Positions 10,517 through 23,513 of a DNA stretch of 36,870 bases are shown here, piece by piece; within the stretch, counting starts at the first letter, position 1, and each line of letters opens with the position of its first letter. This DNA comes from Thermoplasmata archaeon (GTDB lineage: Archaea > Thermoplasmatota > Thermoplasmata > Thermoplasmatales > Thermoplasmataceae): the NCBI GenBank assembly GCA_021821635.1, contig JAKACH010000010.1, positions 1 through 36,870 of the forward strand, given 5' to 3'. Under the pieces are notes generated by a model that had not been told where the DNA came from, ran no database searches, and saw nothing but the letters and a program-made list of their open reading frames with translations. Made by a program: the position numbers and the translations under genes.

Positions 10517-10641
10517 TGAATTTAATAAAATCAATTCTGTGGGAATTTAGTTATATTTAGGGTAAAATGTATATGTTATCCCACAACCACAATTAGAAAA
10601 GTTTGAGCAATGATGTTAAACGACCCCAGAATAAGCACAAA

Positions 10642-10677
10642 ATGGACCATCGGAATTTGATTAAAGTATTAGGCGAA
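10642..10677. repeat. att-like repeat R1 (degenerate tRNA-Ala 3'-end type)
   Basis: atggaccatcggaatttgattaaagtattaggcgaa; shares ATTTGATTAAAGT with R4 at 17875. Confidence 0.55.
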
Positions 10678-10751
10678 TACTGCAATTTCAAGCTTTAGAT
10701 AGTAAAATTCTTAGCTTTATCATGCTATGGCCTCAATGAATAGGTGAATTT

Positions 10752-12897: not shown

Positions 12898-15800
12898 CTA
12901 AATGGGAGCTAGAACGTTAGTTAGAGTAAGGAATCCTGCAGGAATTGGTTTGTCAAGTTTCCACACAATGTTCATTGGCTTGCTTCCCGTATGACTAAGA
13001 TAATTCGCTGTTCCAAGAAAAGTGTATGGGGAAGCGCCAGCTAGATCCTCGCGGTTTTCACGTACAAATAGCACCACCTTACTACCGTTTCGGACGTGAT
13101 TGATATATCTTTGACCTGTTACTGAGTCTTCGGAAGTAGTGCTCTGACTTTGCCAGTGAAAAAGTAAGTCGCTAATGGAGTAATCTTTATACATAGTCGA
13201 GGGAGAATAATTTTCTTCTGACTTATTAAGTGTTATAAACAGTATGTCGATATTCTTCTCTGGTATATATTTAACTCCCTCTCTTACGTTTCCAGGAGTC
13301 AGGTAATCAAATGCAACTAGAATCTGGTCTCTGGTATATCTGCTGTGTAGGTATAGTGGAGAATCAAATCCCAAGTCGACTGGTTCTTCAACAAAGTCAA
13401 TCTTCATGAGATTATAGTTTAGCAAATCCTTTAACTCTTCGAACATTATCTTATTCTCGCTTAACTTTAGCAAACTTTCTTTCAAATCTTTGAACCCAGA
13501 CTTTTCCAGTGGTTTCTGCCATACAGTAAAGTGGAACATCATAAGCATCCTTGATTCCTGCTGCGTTAGTTCCTTCAGATCCAATAAATTCAAATTATTC
13601 AGTACATGTAAAAGAAACTCAATCCATTCTCTAGAATTTATCGAGCAGATTCTAGAAAACGCACCTGTAAATATCTTCTCCAAAGGTTCTGTAAAGTCAC
13701 TGATTATTCCGGCTCTAACTGTAAGACGTGAAAAACTGTATTTTCTGTAAATTTCACGAATATCCATATGATAATATTCAACAAAATTCATAAGTGTTGG
13801 TTCTAGTAATGTTTCTTGTTTGAAAGACGAAATTCTTGAAACTAGGCCAGATAGTGTTCCAATTGAGTCTTTGATGTTCTTAAGTATGAATTCAGTCGCC
13901 TTACGCTCAAGTTGAATATAACAACCTGTTGGAACATCAGGAAAACCTCTTTTTATCTGGTCCACAATTCCTCTATTAGTCTTGCCAAGTAGCGCCTTGA
14001 ACTTTGACTCGAAATCATACTTACTATTCGCCTGCCCAACAAAATCCAAGACAGTTAGACATTCCTTATCATCAGTAATTCTAAGACCTCGGCCAAGTTG
14101 CTGTAAGAAAACAGTGAGACTTTCAGTTGGTCTCAGAAACAGTATAGTATTAATCTCTGGAATGTCCACCCCTTCATTGTACAGATCAACAACGAAAATG
14201 AACCTTATTTTTCCAGAGACGAGTTCTTCTTTTGCATTAAATCTATCTTCATCAGTAGAATCTGCAGTGAGGTAAAGTGAAGTAATACCCGCATCATTGA
14301 ACTGTTTAGCCATGAACGCTGCGTGAACTCGAGACACACAAAACGCAAGTCCTTTAACATTTCTAATATCAGAGACGTATTTCATTACTGAGTCAATTAT
14401 CAGCGTTGCTCTTCTAATTCCCCACCCCTGTTCGTCTGTGTAGATATTCTCTATTTGAGAAATATCATATCCTCCTCTTGCCCATTTTAAGTTTCGAAGG
14501 CTCACTGGATCAGTTATTACAAAATACTGGAAAGTGCTCAGAAGTTTTCTATCTATAGCTTCCGGCAACCTGATTTCTGCAGATATGCGGTTCCCAAAAT
14601 AATGAAGTATGTCTTTTCCGTCCATTCTTTCAGGAGTTGCTGTAAGTCCAATCAGAATCTTTGGATGATAATAGCTAAGAAGTTTCTGGTAGCTCTCTGA
14701 GGCAGCATGGTGAAACTCATCTACCACAATATAGTCATAATAGTATGGATCAGTATGCTTAAACAATTCCTGTGAGTTTAACGACTGTATACTTACGAAA
14801 AGATGATCCAAACTGGATGGCTTGAAATTACCAACCATGAGATCGCCAAAGTTGTAATCTCGTTGAATTCCACGAAAACAATCTAAACTCTGCCTCAGAA
14901 TCTCTTCTCTGTGCGCAACGAACAGAAGCCTTTGTCTGTTATTTCCATGTTCAGCGCAAAATCTCTTATAATCAAAGGCTGAAATCACAGTCTTTCCAGT
15001 TCCGGTTGCTGCAACAACTAGATTAGTATAATTGTTATGAACGACGCGTTCTGCCTGGAGTTTATCTAAAATTTCTGTCTGATATGTATATGGATATATC
15101 TCGAAAAGGAAAGCTGGAGGAATTACTGATTCCCTGTTTGTTTCAGCATCTATTGCTTTAATGAACCTAGATCTGTCTTTTGAAGTGTAGAGTTCAAAGT
15201 CTTTTGAGTTCCAATAAGTTTCAAAGGTAGCATTAATTTTCTGCATTGTGCTCTCCATCTCCATTTCTGTAACCTTTACATTCCATTCAAGTCCACTCAG
15301 CACTGCTGCATTTGAGAGATTCGAAGAACCTACGTATGCGGTTGAAAAACCACTTTCTCTGTTAAAGATATATGTTTTGGCATGTAGTCGAGTTCTCTTA
15401 GTGTCATATGAAATTCTGATCTGGGTGTTTGGAAGAGAATTGATCTCTTCTACTGCTTTTATGTCAGTTGCACCCATGTATGAGGTAGTTATAACTCGCA
15501 ATTTTCCTCCATTGGTTGTAAACTTCCTTAGATCATCAATGATGAGACGAAGTCCACTCCACTTGATAAATGACACTAGCATATCAATAGTATCGCAGGA
15601 TTGTATCTCTCTCTTCAGTTCTGAATAAAGACTTGGTTCACCCTGCGATCCAGTAAAAAGAGAACTTTGTGAAATTGAAGTTTCAGGTCTGATAATCTGC
15701 TCTTCTTGTATACTATTGCTTCCCGAGACCTTATTCTTAACAGAAAGTAACTTTTCACCCGGAAGATGGATAAAATACGAATTTAATCCAAGTCCATTCT

Positions 15801-16041
15801 CTTGAATACTAAACGATTCAAGGGAAGAGTTTAGTGCATTAACAAGATCGCTAATGCTGGCACCCTTTTCGCTTAGAAGATCAAAGTATTTTTCTACAAC
15901 ATTAGCGACATACAACGAAAGCATTCTCGACGCTTCTTCCGGATCGAGTCTAGTTTTCGTAATCACTTTATCTTTTTGGGCTTCGATTTCGCTATATATT
16001 ATCTGGTTTATTACCTGTTCATAAATTCCAGGTTTCAGCAT
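12898..16041 (-). CDS. Phospholipase D-like nuclease + SF2 DEAD/DEAH helicase + DUF3427-type C-terminal protein
   Basis: PLD: RLHAKTYIFNRESGFSTAYVGSSNLSNAA (HxK); Walker A VAATGTGKTVISAFDYKRF; VDEFHHAASESYQKLL; GLTATPERMDG; FLQQLGRGLRI; C-terminal ~400 aa resembles DUF3427. Confidence 0.85.
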   Translation of the reverse strand: MLKPGIYEQVINQIIYSEIEAQKDKVITKTRLDPEEASRMLSLYVANVVEKYFDLLSEKGASISDLVNALNSSLESFSIQENGLGLNSYFIHLPGEKLLSVKNKVSGSNSIQEEQIIRPETSISQSSLFTGSQGEPSLYSELKREIQSCDTIDMLVSFIKWSGLRLIIDDLRKFTTNGGKLRVITTSYMGATDIKAVEEINSLPNTQIRISYDTKRTRLHAKTYIFNRESGFSTAYVGSSNLSNAAVLSGLEWNVKVTEMEMESTMQKINATFETYWNSKDFELYTSKDRSRFIKAIDAETNRESVIPPAFLFEIYPYTYQTEILDKLQAERVVHNNYTNLVVAATGTGKTVISAFDYKRFCAEHGNNRQRLLFVAHREEILRQSLDCFRGIQRDYNFGDLMVGNFKPSSLDHLFVSIQSLNSQELFKHTDPYYYDYIVVDEFHHAASESYQKLLSYYHPKILIGLTATPERMDGKDILHYFGNRISAEIRLPEAIDRKLLSTFQYFVITDPVSLRNLKWARGGYDISQIENIYTDEQGWGIRRATLIIDSVMKYVSDIRNVKGLAFCVSRVHAAFMAKQFNDAGITSLYLTADSTDEDRFNAKEELVSGKIRFIFVVDLYNEGVDIPEINTILFLRPTESLTVFLQQLGRGLRITDDKECLTVLDFVGQANSKYDFESKFKALLGKTNRGIVDQIKRGFPDVPTGCYIQLERKATEFILKNIKDSIGTLSGLVSRISSFKQETLLEPTLMNFVEYYHMDIREIYRKYSFSRLTVRAGIISDFTEPLEKIFTGAFSRICSINSREWIEFLLHVLNNLNLLDLKELTQQESRMLMMFHFTVWQKPLEKSGFKDLKESLLKLSENKIMFEELKDLLNYNLMKIDFVEEPVDLGFDSPLYLHSRYTRDQILVAFDYLTPGNVREGVKYIPEKNIDILFITLNKSEENYSPSTMYKDYSISDLLFHWQSQSTTSEDSVTGQRYINHVRNGSKVVLFVRENREDLAGASPYTFLGTANYLSHTGSKPMNIVWKLDKPIPAGFLTLTNVLAPI

Positions 16042-16371: not shown

Positions 16372-16409
16372 GTGGACTAGTCAGGATTTGATCAGAATTT
16401 CAGGGGAAC
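16372..16409. repeat. att-like repeat R2
   Basis: gtggactagtcaggatttgatcagaatttcaggggaac aligned to R4 at 17875. Confidence 0.55.
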
Positions 16410-16487
16410 ATATTTAATAAGGGATAATGAAGCAGTCTTGCGGCTATTTATGAAAATTAATATAATGTTTAAACATAAACATATGGT

Positions 16488-16700
16488 ATGCCCAAAACTA
16501 TCACCATCAAAAAGTCAGTGTACGATGAATTAAAGGGATTTAAGAAAGAGAATGAGAGTTTCAGTGATCTTCTGGACAGATTGGTCAAATCACAGAGCAA
16601 GAAGGAAATTCTTACGTCTTTAAGGGGAAGCACTGAATTTGAAGATAAGGAGAAACTTCTAAAAGAGATCGAAAAGAAAAGATGGGAGAAGAGAAATTGA
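16488..16700 (+). CDS. VapB-type antitoxin
   Basis: MPKTITIKKSVYDELKGFKKENESFSDLLDRLVK, overlapping a downstream PIN gene. Confidence 0.75.
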   Translation: MPKTITIKKSVYDELKGFKKENESFSDLLDRLVKSQSKKEILTSLRGSTEFEDKEKLLKEIEKKRWEKRN

Positions 16701-17074
16701 TTCTACTGGATACAGATGTTATTATTGAGGTGCTGGATAAGAAATCTGACATGGGGAATGTAATACTGCGTAGGATCATTGAAAGCGGAGAAGAATACTG
16801 TACAAGCTCTGTGAACATGCATGAACTGCTTTACGGCTTACAAAAATACTCCAAAGATTCTCACTTAGTCCTTCAGATACCCACACTGGGATACAATAAG
16901 AATGACAGCGAACTATCTGCTGTTTTGGAGCTAAGTGCAGAAAGAAAAGGAAGATCGGTCCCAAGGATGGATGCGATTGTGGCATCAGTAGCAATAAACA
17001 ACGGTTGCTCACTTTATACATTAGATGAGCACTTTGAAGTTTTCACGGACAAAGGTCTTAAATTGTTCAGGTAG
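16682..17074 (+). CDS. VapC-type PIN-domain toxin
   Basis: LILLDTDVIIEVLDKK ... SSVNMHELLYG ... PRMDAIVASVAINNGCSLYTLDEHF: PIN acidic residues. Confidence 0.85.
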   Translation: MGEEKLILLDTDVIIEVLDKKSDMGNVILRRIIESGEEYCTSSVNMHELLYGLQKYSKDSHLVLQIPTLGYNKNDSELSAVLELSAERKGRSVPRMDAIVASVAINNGCSLYTLDEHFEVFTDKGLKLFR

Positions 17075-17080
17075 AACAGA

Positions 17081-17117
17081 ATGGACCGGTTTGGCCTCGA
17101 TTGAATTATTAAGGGAA
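17081..17117. repeat. att-like repeat R3 (most diverged)
   Basis: atggaccggtttggcctcgattgaattattaagggaa; first 10 nt identical to the tRNA end copy, begins 7 nt after the vapC stop. Confidence 0.45.
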
Positions 17118-17248
17118 TGCAACTAAAATATAGATAGGAGTCTGGGTCCTCAGAGACATTTCAAGCAAAAATGGGTTCTTATTGTAGTTTGTCCTGTATT
17201 ACGAAATAATATACCGAAATTTAAAATATTCGTAATTCATTCTATAGT

Positions 17249-17476
17249 ATGAAGGTGTATACCACGGTTTCTGCAAAAATCTCAGAAGAAGAAAGGGAAG
17301 AATTAAAGAAACTGGGATTAAATCCTACCGTAATTATTAAAAAAGCGGTGCAGGAAGAAATCAGGAAAGCAAGGAACAAGACCTTAATAGAGAAAATGAA
17401 AAGGGTTAAACCCATTATATCGAAATTAAAGCTAGATGAAATAGTATCAGATATCAGGGAAGACCGGGAAAGATGA
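17249..17476 (+). CDS. VapB-type antitoxin
   Basis: MKVYTTVSAKISEEEREELKKLGLNPTVIIKKAVQEEIRKA; ATGA overlap with the downstream PIN gene. Confidence 0.75.
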   Translation: MKVYTTVSAKISEEEREELKKLGLNPTVIIKKAVQEEIRKARNKTLIEKMKRVKPIISKLKLDEIVSDIREDRER

Positions 17477-17856
17477 ATCTGCTGGACGCTTCCGCAATTT
17501 TTAACCTTTTTCAGCGTGGTAAATATGATATACTCGTTTCTGGGGCAACTATCCCTCTTGCTAGGTACGAGATTGGCAACATTCTTTGGAAAAATTATAA
17601 AGTTAGAAATAGAATATCAAAGAGAGAAGCGATGGAATCGGGCAATGTCCTTTTTGAGCTGCTTGATTCCATGGAACAGATCATCCCTTCTTCTGCTTCA
17701 GTATTAGATTTATCCCTCGAGGAGGGCCTGACATTCTATGATTCATCATATCTAGTATCGGCCATTGAATCAGGTTGCGAACTTGTAACTGACGACCTGA
17801 AACTTCATAAGATTGTAAGCTCAAAGATAACGGCACGCAAGAGCTCGGATTTGTAA
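17473..17856 (+). CDS. VapC-type PIN-domain toxin
   Basis: NLLDASAIFNLFQRG ... LARYEIGNILWK ... TFYDSSYLVSAIESGCELVTDDLKLHK. Confidence 0.85.
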   Translation: MNLLDASAIFNLFQRGKYDILVSGATIPLARYEIGNILWKNYKVRNRISKREAMESGNVLFELLDSMEQIIPSSASVLDLSLEEGLTFYDSSYLVSAIESGCELVTDDLKLHKIVSSKITARKSSDL

Positions 17857-17874
17857 TTAAACATCATTGCAATT

Positions 17875-17913
17875 ATGGACCGGTCGGGATTTGATTAAAG
17901 TTCTGAGGGGAAA
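17875..17913. repeat. att-like repeat R4: exact 20-bp copy of the tRNA-Ala 3' end plus conserved arm
   Basis: atggaccggtcgggatttga is identical to 23441-23460, then ttaaagttctgaggggaaa shared with R1/R2. Confidence 0.75.
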
Positions 17914-19071: not shown

Positions 19072-19258
19072 ATTCAGTGAAAGAGATCCTTATACTTTAC
19101 ATATTTCCTTGTGATAGAAATTAAAACCAAGTATTATTGATCCTCCAGTATTTATAAACATTTTAAGGCAATACTAAATGTTCTCATGATATGCCTCAGA
19201 TTTCCAATAGTGCTGTAGTAAAAATCGCATTTACTATGGTAAATTTTAGAGCAATATA

Positions 19259-19643: not shown

Positions 19644-20015
19644 ATGGTACCAAAAAATGAACTTGAGGAGAAACTCATAAACTTCTTCAATGCAGAGAAT
19701 AACCGGGACTGGAAACTATATGAGTCATTTCTCTCATCGGATGTGGAGTGGATTTCGTACGGTCGCCCAAGGCGAAAAGTTGTAGTTGGAAGGGAAGAGT
19801 ATGTCAAGACTATGATCGGAGCTTATCAGGGCATATCTGCAAGATTCAAGGTTTTGAACATGGTTTCAGACATAGAAAGAGGGGTAGTAATTGCAGAGCT
19901 TGAGTTGCTTTCAAGAAGATCCGTGGATATATTTGAATTTGAAAATGGCCTTATTAGGAGAGAGCGGGAGTATTATGATGATGCCTTCTGGTTAGAATCC
20001 AATGATAAATCATAG
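19644..20015 (+). CDS. SnoaL/NTF2-like family protein
   Basis: KLINFFNAENNRDWKLYESFLSSDVEWISYGRPRRKVVVGREEYVKTMIGAY typical NTF2-like fold. Confidence 0.65.
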   Translation: MVPKNELEEKLINFFNAENNRDWKLYESFLSSDVEWISYGRPRRKVVVGREEYVKTMIGAYQGISARFKVLNMVSDIERGVVIAELELLSRRSVDIFEFENGLIRREREYYDDAFWLESNDKS

Positions 20016-20145
20016 AAGAAAAACAAGAGGTATGCCTAAAATTCAGTAGAAACGCATTTGACAAAATGAACGTCTCAAGATTAAGTATAGTTTTGAGAGG
20101 ATATTATTTGAAACTAACATTTTTAATAACCTGAACTCCCCCAAT

Positions 20146-21573
20146 TTAACCCATAGGTATCATGTCACTGAACAGATCAACAATCTTCTCAACCTTTTTT
20201 GGAACTGCTGCAAAATATTCTGCACCGCTCTTCTCAACAATCCTCTCCATCTTTGACAGTTCAAATATTATCTCGTTTACAGACATCTTTCCCAGTAAGT
20301 TGTGATCTTTCAATACCTTCAGTATCCTGAATCTTATCCTCAGTGCAAGAAAGACAATGAAGAAGAATCCTTTCACTTTCTCATTATTCCTGAGGTATGT
20401 CTTGTCCGATTCGAGATCACCCTTCATTGTATCGAAGACCTGCTCCACTTCTTCTCTTGACTTGTACTGTTCATATATTTCAGAAGGACTTCGATCAAGA
20501 TCGGATATAATTGCAAAAACACCAAGACTGTTCTTCCTGTCCTCAAAGTATTCCATGTCTTTCCTGGAGGATGCAACATCCCTCAGTATGGATGATTCCT
20601 CCTCCGCCCTAATCATGGGGTCCTGGAACATGTATACATATCCCAGTCTTGACGATCTTCTTGAGGATCGTATGGGTCTTTCGTTGTACACGAATGCTGA
20701 ATCAAACTTCACATTATCCGGAACAAGGGTGGAATTCCTTCTCAATGGAACAATGTAGTGCATCTTCATCCTTCTCATATCCTTAACGATGGATTCCGAG
20801 AAAAGGCCCCGATCCATGATGAACCCTATTTCATGGTCATGAAAACGGTCGATGAAATAACCAAGCGACTTGACATCCCTTACTGATCCATAAAAAACAT
20901 CCATTGCCACCGGTACCCATGACTTGACGGAGAATGCCATTATCACTGTGACCTGATTCTCATATTCATGATCAGGATTGTAACCCTTCTCCGCAAGCTT
21001 CAGGTTCTTGGAATATGATATGATGGATGTCATATCATAAAAAAGCAGACCGCCGGGATCCATGAGTTTCCTGAACATTTCGTATAGGTCAGGAAAATGG
21101 TTCCCCACATATCCGAGAATCCTTGACAGTTCGTCAGGATCCAGATCTGGTCTTAGTGATCTGGATACATACAGCTTCTGGAATCTTGATGCCACTAGTC
21201 TTAAAGGCATGGGATCAATGGCCTTCACCATTGCCATTGCAACGATCTGGTCACGATAGGGATGCTTTTCCATGATCGCATACATGTCCTGTGCAAGATT
21301 CCACACAAGCTGTGAGTTTCCGTATTCATATATCCTGGAGGATGAGAATATCCTCTTTGGCCTCTTCTCCCTGTAAGTTCCGTTCTCATCAATGGAACCA
21401 AGGAGAACGGTCTTCTTCACAGGCTTCTTTCTCTTCCTGTCCCATATGCCCTTTGCAACATACAGGTAATAGTTTCCCCCTATTACCTTCAGTTCAAGTT
21501 TCTTTCCCTGTTCCCCTTTCATCTTCAGGTATGTATCCTTAACTGCATCGGGGGCACTATCGATCATGTACAT
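20146..21573 (-). CDS. DDE transposase (IS1634/IS4-like)
   Basis: LLFYDMTSIISYSKN, EIGFIMDRGLFSES, HYIVPLRRNS, YKSREEVEQVFDTMKGDLESDKTYLRN (YREK-like). Confidence 0.85.
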   Translation of the reverse strand: MYMIDSAPDAVKDTYLKMKGEQGKKLELKVIGGNYYLYVAKGIWDRKRKKPVKKTVLLGSIDENGTYREKRPKRIFSSSRIYEYGNSQLVWNLAQDMYAIMEKHPYRDQIVAMAMVKAIDPMPLRLVASRFQKLYVSRSLRPDLDPDELSRILGYVGNHFPDLYEMFRKLMDPGGLLFYDMTSIISYSKNLKLAEKGYNPDHEYENQVTVIMAFSVKSWVPVAMDVFYGSVRDVKSLGYFIDRFHDHEIGFIMDRGLFSESIVKDMRRMKMHYIVPLRRNSTLVPDNVKFDSAFVYNERPIRSSRRSSRLGYVYMFQDPMIRAEEESSILRDVASSRKDMEYFEDRKNSLGVFAIISDLDRSPSEIYEQYKSREEVEQVFDTMKGDLESDKTYLRNNEKVKGFFFIVFLALRIRFRILKVLKDHNLLGKMSVNEIIFELSKMERIVEKSGAEYFAAVPKKVEKIVDLFSDMIPMG

Positions 21574-22356: not shown

Positions 22357-22797
22357 CTATTTTTTATACCTTTCAATGAATTCTTCTGAAGTCAGAATAT
22401 CAATATCGTCGTGATTTTTCAATTCGCCTTTCATGGAAATTAAATCTTTATCATAAGTGATGATAAAGTCAGCGCCAATGCTTCTGGCTATCGCAATAAT
22501 GTACCAATCATTTCCAATCCTGTTAAGCATTTTCTGGTCGTGCTCCAAATCCTTCATGGGGACGTAACTAAGCCAATTATCAAGATCATCTAGGAATTGG
22601 CGAAAATAAACAGGATCAATTTTACTTAGTTTCGGGTCGCTCTTAATTATTCTTCCAACTTCTCCCATCAAGGCATCACAAGTGTACGATGTAACTCTGC
22701 CCTCTCTGATCAGCTGCATTACCATTTTGCTTGCAGTTCCAAATTTTCTTCCAAGAATTGCTCGAAAAAATACGTTAGAATCAGTTACTATTTTCAT
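22357..22797 (-). CDS. PIN-domain protein (putative toxin)
   Basis: MKIVTDSNVFFRAILG ... NDWYIIAIARSIGADFIITYDKDL. Confidence 0.75.
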   Translation of the reverse strand: MKIVTDSNVFFRAILGRKFGTASKMVMQLIREGRVTSYTCDALMGEVGRIIKSDPKLSKIDPVYFRQFLDDLDNWLSYVPMKDLEHDQKMLNRIGNDWYIIAIARSIGADFIITYDKDLISMKGELKNHDDIDILTSEEFIERYKK

Positions 22798-23326
22798 TTA
22801 CGGAATGCCTGATTCTGTTGAATGCCGTGTCCAAGTCATCGATTGTAATTTCATTTTCGCGTGCAAACGAATCAAAGTAGATATAAAGATTGTCCAGTAT
22901 TACAGCAGATTTAACATTATATCTCTTATATTTTCCATACACATAATCTAAGAGTTTCTCTGAAGTTAATCTATTGTATCTTTCTTTGATGCTTGAAAGC
23001 GCTGTTTTGTGGCTTTGATCTAGAGTGTTCCACAGTGCGTCGGCGTCTTTGAAACCTTCTGGAGTTAGGGCAAAACCGGTTGATTCATTTACAAGACCAG
23101 ACGCCACTAGTTCATTGAGATCGTTGTCAAGTTCGCGTGAAAATGGTCCATAATAATGTGGTACGAATTTATACCAATCCTCCTTTTGGAAAACTGTCTC
23201 TTTTAAGAGTAAGAACATTTCCTTCTGTAGGTGAGTTCTGGATGGTATACCCTCATTGTCTCTCCTCGCGGTTCCCCTAGCGTAAATAAGCAGTTTAAGA
23301 AGATCCAATTTCTGCATACATACCAA
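22781..23326 (-). CDS. YwgA/Panacea(DUF4065)-like protein upstream of and overlapping the PIN gene
   Basis: SRTHLQKEMFLL...WYKFVPHYYGPFSRELDNDLNELVASGLV resembles the YwgA/Panacea 'YGPfS.el..dl..L...Glv' pattern. Confidence 0.5.
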   Translation of the reverse strand: MVCMQKLDLLKLLIYARGTARRDNEGIPSRTHLQKEMFLLLKETVFQKEDWYKFVPHYYGPFSRELDNDLNELVASGLVNESTGFALTPEGFKDADALWNTLDQSHKTALSSIKERYNRLTSEKLLDYVYGKYKRYNVKSAVILDNLYIYFDSFARENEITIDDLDTAFNRIRHSVNENSN

Positions 23327-23441: not shown

Positions 23442-23513
23442 TGGACCGGTCGGGATTTGAACCCGAGGCCTCCTGCTTGCGAAGCAGGCGATCTACCGCT
23501 GATCTACCGGCCC
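23442..23513 (-). tRNA. tRNA-Ala (anticodon CGC)
   Basis: gggccggTAGATCAGCGGTAGATCGCCTGCttCGCaaGCAGGaggccTCGGGTTCAAATCCCGAccggtccA; full cloverleaf with G3-U70 wobble (Ala identity element). CCA not encoded; no intron. Confidence 0.95.

Follow-up and report, generated by a model that had tools for sequence, protein, structure and literature searches.

The window analyzed here, a stretch of 36,870 nucleotides from a Thermoplasmata archaeon, carries two vapBC toxin-antitoxin (TA) pairs, each lying between copies of a short repeat. This arrangement raises the question of whether the pairs are ordinary tandem loci or belong to an array of cassettes, anchored at a tRNA gene, in which TA modules are acquired singly. 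The T of TGGACC in repeats R2, R3 and R4 lies at 16373, 17082 and 17876, on the same strand in all three, and the vapC stops end at 17074 and 17856. The spacings are therefore 709 bp (R2-R3) and 794 bp (R3-R4), with gaps of 7 nt before R3 and 19 nt before R4, exactly as a sequence-only reading of these co-oriented units had given them.

All three repeats are altered versions of TGGACCGGTCGGGATTTGA, a sequence that matches the 3' end of a tRNA-Ala(CGC) gene in reverse complement, and their 25-nt consensus has 3 matches in the window against 0.01 expected from shuffled sequence. Beyond the tRNA-derived part the repeats continue into a conserved extension, missed by the earlier reading, that is not of tRNA sequence. 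In the window, the repeats have decayed from a 42-bp site that is described below. The sites and their anchor are as follows, with scores from a weight-matrix (PWM) model of the site; in 1.45 Mb of reversed sequence, used as a control, this model never scored above 7.9 bits.

10640..10681, + strand: R1, decayed cassette site, T at 10642, 32 bits
16371..16412, + strand: R2, decayed cassette site opening cassette 1, 27 bits
17080..17121, + strand: R3, decayed cassette site opening cassette 2, 29 bits
17874..17915, + strand: R4, well-preserved site, 57 bits, the tRNA-proximal detectable one
19134..19175, + strand: probable, very decayed site (~19136), right half only, opening a unit with a RelB remnant and a SnoaL gene
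20064..20105, + strand: R5, a probable, very decayed site (~20066), -8.8 bits
23442..23460: proposed attB core, the 3' 19 nt of tRNA-Ala(CGC), reading TGGACCGGTCGGGATTTGA on the + strand and identified by identity to the site core
23442..23513, - strand: tRNA-Ala(CGC), anchor of the array (ARAGORN, Rfam)

The RelB-remnant/SnoaL unit is a separate cassette elsewhere, for example at 13236-14428 of G015a. By eye, R5 looks like the beginning of the G092 8377 cassette, and it lies at a boundary homologous to a site on C50, a contig of the window's own genome.

Both pairs are predicted type II TA (VapBC) operons, in which an antitoxin gene is followed by a gene for a PIN-domain toxin, with weak scores for the second pair. 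The units hold the following features.

12898..16041, - strand: large ORF of 1047 aa in the R1-R2 unit, probably of helicase type
16373..17081, + strand: cassette 1, 709 bp, vapBC, with homologues that have sites at both ends
16488..16700, + strand: vapB1 antitoxin, 70 aa (PF02697, E 9.5e-15)
16682..17074, + strand: vapC1 toxin, 130 aa, PIN domain (PF01850, E 1.2e-10)
17082..17875, + strand: cassette 2, 794 bp, vapBC-like, with homologues between sites elsewhere
17249..17476, + strand: vapB2-like antitoxin, 75 aa, upstream of the PIN gene (weak match to NCBIfam TA_anti_VapB_Sulfo, E 9.3e-4)
17473..17856, + strand: vapC2 toxin, 127 aa, weak PIN domain (PF01850, E 9.2e-4, below cut-off)
19644..20015, + strand: SnoaL-like protein (PF12680), a cassette gene in several other arrays
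20146..21573, - strand: IS transposase (DDE_Tnp_1; PF01609, E 4.2e-19), inserted in the R5-tRNA unit just past the ~20066 site
22357..22797, - strand: PIN-domain toxin of the tRNA-proximal unit (PF13470, TIGR00305)
22781..23326, - strand: 181-aa partner of that PIN gene, antitoxin-like by position, with no family match

The last two genes also form a pair at the tRNA-proximal end of locus L207, with 97.6% DNA identity. The large ORF at 12898..16041 has a possible phospholipase D-like N-terminus (by eye), and G015a and G016a, which belong to other genera, have homologous DNA in their array regions. A 385-aa ORF at 7438-8595 (+ strand) appears by eye to be of TnpB/IS605 type.

The 42-bp site consists of 19 nt identical to the tRNA-Ala 3' end, followed by a conserved extension of about 20 nt that forms an imperfect dyad, ATTTGATTAA-4 nt-TTAAGCGAAT. 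Alignment of 114 sites gave the consensus AATGGACCGGTCGGGATTTG(A/C)TTAA(A/T)GTTTTAAGSGAATACT, and conservation has sharp edges at -2 and about +39. An initial motif search that included 60 relatives found the site in 30 of 61 genomes and the reversed pattern in none. With the weight matrix, 233 sites scoring at least 14 bits were identified in 1.45 Mb from about 55 Thermoplasmatales assemblies; across the order, 55 of 117 genomes, spread over three families, carry the site. When 11.3 million bacterial and archaeal genome contigs were scanned for the exact pattern, matches occurred only in Thermoplasmata, among them Acidiplasma aeolicum, I-plasma, a Thermoplasma MAG and ASS_A1 (CP009479.1), and viral contigs gave no exact match. 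In the genomes tested, a search for arrays behind other tRNAs, with patterns for the arm alone or for a generic core, pointed almost exclusively to the tRNA-Ala arrays.

Anchoring at the tRNA end, as proposed from the window, is general. Wherever sites share a contig with tRNA-Ala, all 76 of 76 lie 3' of that gene in the expected orientation, and both tRNA-Ala genes carry arrays in the complete genomes G016, G012, G015 and G027. Adjacent sites are co-oriented in 139 cases and not in 2, their spacing peaks at 700-1000 bp, and arrays reach 12 detected sites. Sites tend to score lower the farther they rank from the tRNA (rho -0.36, p 0.0013, for sites that are not independent and with relatedness ignored). 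Low-copy old arrays, including that of the window, may be inactive.

The units of 400-1300 bp have att-type sites at both ends, contain no integrase and stand in tandem at the target gene. At least 59 of 71 such units carry TA genes, as judged by clustering with Pfam-identified members; the types include RelBE/ParE (17 units), VapBC types, PIN/AbrB and MazF, and at least 2 more probable AbrB-PIN units, on C50 of the window's genome and in G019a, were missed by ORF choice. Other cassette genes encode a peptidase S51, MarR, a methyltransferase, a PHO4 transporter and a GNAT-like protein (GNAT by eye). A cassette site beside a MazF-like pair, with a group II intron (RF02003) after it, was also seen at L003 1500-2850, on a contig (C1 of G000) that has no tRNA-Ala.

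Do the units move singly? Each of the two window units was found separately, with sites at both ends, in other genera. Homologues of cassette 1, 710-712 bp long and with both ends at sites, occur in seven genomes (G026, G092, G031, G012, G019, G084 and G088), and homologues of cassette 2 lie between sites in eight (G071, G003, G030, G033, G026, G092, G021 and G025). In G092 and the near-identical G026 both are present with cassette 2 ahead of cassette 1, the opposite of the window order. The two vapBC loci are thus not always inherited together, as ordinary tandem loci with unrelated flanks would be; they are separate units in other genera. Comparison of 200-bp flanks over all sites showed both flanks in common for 13 pairs (3%) versus one flank only for 382, whereas 250-400 bp away from the same sites both flanks were common to 94-98% of pairs. 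Homology between arrays therefore breaks at the site. A 1,140-bp cassette in G048 is missing from its close relative G045, with flanks 96-97% identical. Together, these observations strongly support that units move singly and that the breakpoints fall at the site. They also support the earlier proposal that TA modules are acquired one at a time.

Reshuffling of this kind might be achieved without a dedicated enzyme, by homologous recombination between the ~42-bp repeats. Long direct repeats can recombine, and tandem duplication does exist, since one unit is present twice in G015a (100% identity over the 300 bp compared). However, the sites of different arrays often differ at many positions, the 19 nt strictly identical at the tRNA are short for homologous recombination, and neither the sharp conservation of the arm nor the strict anchoring at the tRNA would be explained. 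We consider homologous recombination a very improbable source of the arrays.

In six arrays, a search for resolvases brought to light a conserved element, ~17-25 kb long, that immediately follows tRNA-Ala. It encodes a 429-aa integrase, whose gene starts ~50 nt from tRNA-Ala, together with a 591-aa ATPase, ParA, a 201-aa serine recombinase and an AAA+ ATPase (Orc1/Cdc6-like by inspection). The serine recombinase, located between tRNA and array, was considered as a candidate and set aside because a serine enzyme is not expected to reuse the 19-nt tRNA core; it is one plasmid gene among several and is presumably the plasmid's resolvase. The integrase is similar to XerA (NCBIfam E 2.8e-9; hhalign probability 94-97%) and matches a PHROG integrase; it has no Pfam match, and no sequence relative was found among solved structures. 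Residues R152, Y270, R273 and Y308 are invariant in 28 sequences and fit, as assigned by eye, the R..YxxR..Y pattern of tyrosine recombinases given for pNOB8-type enzymes (PMC8371274).

The motif TTTAATYTATTAATCGAATACT on the tRNA side of the element and the cassette arm AGTATTCGCTTAA, when both are read in one direction, form a 13-bp inverted repeat around the core, centered at site position 8/9. Paralogues of the integrase (L241-L253) lie behind tRNA-Val, -Leu, -Gln, -Arg and -Pro, where the arm beside the tRNA is kept and the core differs; in the genomes tested these loci apparently have no cassette arrays. Sites occur in 20 of 25 genomes with the integrase versus 35 of 92 others (Fisher p 2e-4, uncorrected for kinship), so that 35 site-bearing genomes lack a close integrase copy, and none was detected in the window's own assembly, which is 80% complete. 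Cassettes keep one arm only, the plasmid's left-arm (tRNA-proximal) motif occurring at 5 of 233 sites. Since the cassettes carry one of the plasmid's two arms, their acceptance by the integrase is not self-evident. Nevertheless, linkage, the shared arm and geometry make the pNOB8-type integrase of the tRNA-Ala integrative plasmid the likely recombinase.

The position of the exchange bears on the choice of enzyme. Where flanking sites differ, the left part of a joined site matches one parent and the right part the other, and in informative events the switch lies inside the tRNA-derived core, the TGGACCGGTCGGG half of the site. Switch positions were 4 to 6 (G031/G015a), mostly -2 to 6 (G045/G048) and 7-18 (G096/G097); several events are noisy because the parents have diverged. 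The chromosomal recombinase XerA might instead move the units at the dif-like dyad formed by ATTTGATTAA and TTAAGCGAAT, as in the pdif modules of Acinetobacter, which carry TA genes too. XerA is present in 13 of 13 genomes tested, and it was the first enzyme suspected, as the only PF00589 match in G019 and G017. It lost favor once the plasmid integrase was found beside tRNA-Ala (with fragments in G019 too) and the crossover proved to lie outside the dyad, and thus not within a 28-bp dif site of the kind used by Xer recombinases. In addition, the arm beside the tRNAs that have integrase paralogues agrees with the right-hand part of the dyad, and in family f5 (18 genomes) neither the site nor the plasmid integrase was found. 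Movement of the units by XerA therefore seems quite unlikely.

We conclude that the window very probably contains a short, decayed part of a gene-cassette array served by a tRNA-Ala plasmid integrase. In this reading a cassette is one operon, usually a TA pair, and opens with the 42-bp site, made up of the 19-nt core and one integrase arm, TTAAGSGAATACT. The tyrosine integrase, of pNOB8 type and encoded by plasmids whose own insertion target is this tRNA-Ala 3' end, would join a circular cassette to the tRNA gene by recombination between their cores, restoring the tRNA and leaving the new cassette beside it. Excised circles would be the intermediates and the integrase would act in trans; neither such a circle nor a free cassette was encountered. 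Arrays would grow from the tRNA while the oldest sites decay distally, and TA genes may dominate because they resist loss. The arrangement in G027, where a cassette sits between tRNA-Ala(TGC) and a decayed plasmid end, matches the expectation for insertion at the tRNA.

The same tandem units might have arisen by accretion, in which successive plasmids at the tRNA lost everything except their att ends and a loss-resistant TA module, and no unit ever moved alone. Formation and accretion of such decayed elements (CIMEs) at attR are documented in bacteria (PMC5704250). One 710-bp unit of G078 (L154 6490-7199), whose only gene encodes a 206-aa protein without assigned function, keeps the plasmid's tRNA-proximal arm and leader and is apparently a plasmid reduced by deletion. 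Integrase remnants also lie inside arrays beyond a cassette site at G027 C1:144640 and G061 C242:11517; these are decayed plasmids pushed away from the tRNA. However, decay of this kind should often leave the tRNA-proximal arm, seen at only the 5 sites noted above. Moreover, unit lengths stay constant across genera (709-712 bp) while the neighbors change, and the lone 1,140-bp cassette is present or absent between close relatives. Plasmid decay and accretion explains single cases such as G078 and does not explain the missing second arm, the constant lengths or the changed neighbors. As a general origin of the arrays we regard it as unlikely, and favor cassette movement by the plasmid integrase.

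How does such a system compare with those already described? The integrative plasmid resembles pNOB8-type plasmids (PMC8371274) in its R..YxxR..Y integrase (by eye), its tRNA 3' target, its tandem integration, and the ParA and ATPase it carries. In the review of those plasmids we found no single-gene cassette arrays, nor the word 'cassette'. Thermoplasmatales islands near tRNAs, including tRNA-Ala, have been described with vapBC, relBE and mazEF (PMC5155288, PMC12302457); the passages of these papers available to us mention no recurrent 42-bp site, cassette structure or shuffling. Arrays can also arise from repeated use of one integration site (PMC6563490). In the open-access literature we found no description of the 42-bp site or of such cassette arrays.

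Bacterial CIMEs, and tandem ICE/IME accretion more generally, provide att-flanked units without an integrase, stacked at a tRNA gene 3' end and movable by a foreign integrase (PMC5704250). The cassettes share the att flanks, the lack of integration genes and the tandem placement at the target gene; they differ in being one-operon units of 0.7-1.2 kb with a single arm, shuffled as exact units among genera, and origin by loss from an ICE or IME is apparent in one case, G078. The pdif modules of Acinetobacter plasmids are likewise small mobile units with short tyrosine-recombinase sites and often contain TA modules (PMC13141974, PMC12907356). In contrast to them, the units here lie at a chromosomal tRNA with sites that are direct repeats, all oriented alike, and exchange occurs in the tRNA-derived core with no implication of XerA.

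A further likeness is to integrons. Here too are directional arrays of small single-gene cassettes, each with one site, that are anchored at one end, recombine individually and can be maintained with no integrase close by. TA cassettes are likewise abundant in chromosomal integron arrays. The differences are that the site joins a core from the tRNA-Ala 3' end to a single arm and is not a folded attC, that a tRNA gene takes the place of attI as anchor, that a plasmid integrase of pNOB8 type, and not IntI, is the candidate enzyme, and that the genes lie on either strand (59 versus 39 ORFs). No attC boxes (R''-L''/L'-R') were seen on inspection of the 42-bp site, and no IntI-type integrase is linked to an array, the PF00589 matches of 13 genomes lying outside the arrays mapped in complete genomes.

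In nature, the shuffling of single-gene cassettes by site-specific recombination is so far familiar to us from integrons and from Xer dif modules, both best known from bacteria. We think it rather probable, though with less assurance than for the window itself, that the arrays represent a second natural gene-cassette system, independent of integrons and anchored at tRNA-Ala, in which a plasmid integrase inserts, excises and exchanges single-operon cassettes among Thermoplasmatales genera, with TA genes stabilizing the arrays. If so, an unrelated archaeal system shares both architecture and TA richness with those bacterial ones, implying that such a design evolves repeatedly; the role of TA genes as array stabilizers becomes testable, and a route for the spread of TA genes among acidophilic archaea is explained. 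For biochemistry, the 42-bp site is now defined and a candidate enzyme named. The system works like an integron or like Xer dif modules, and belongs to neither.
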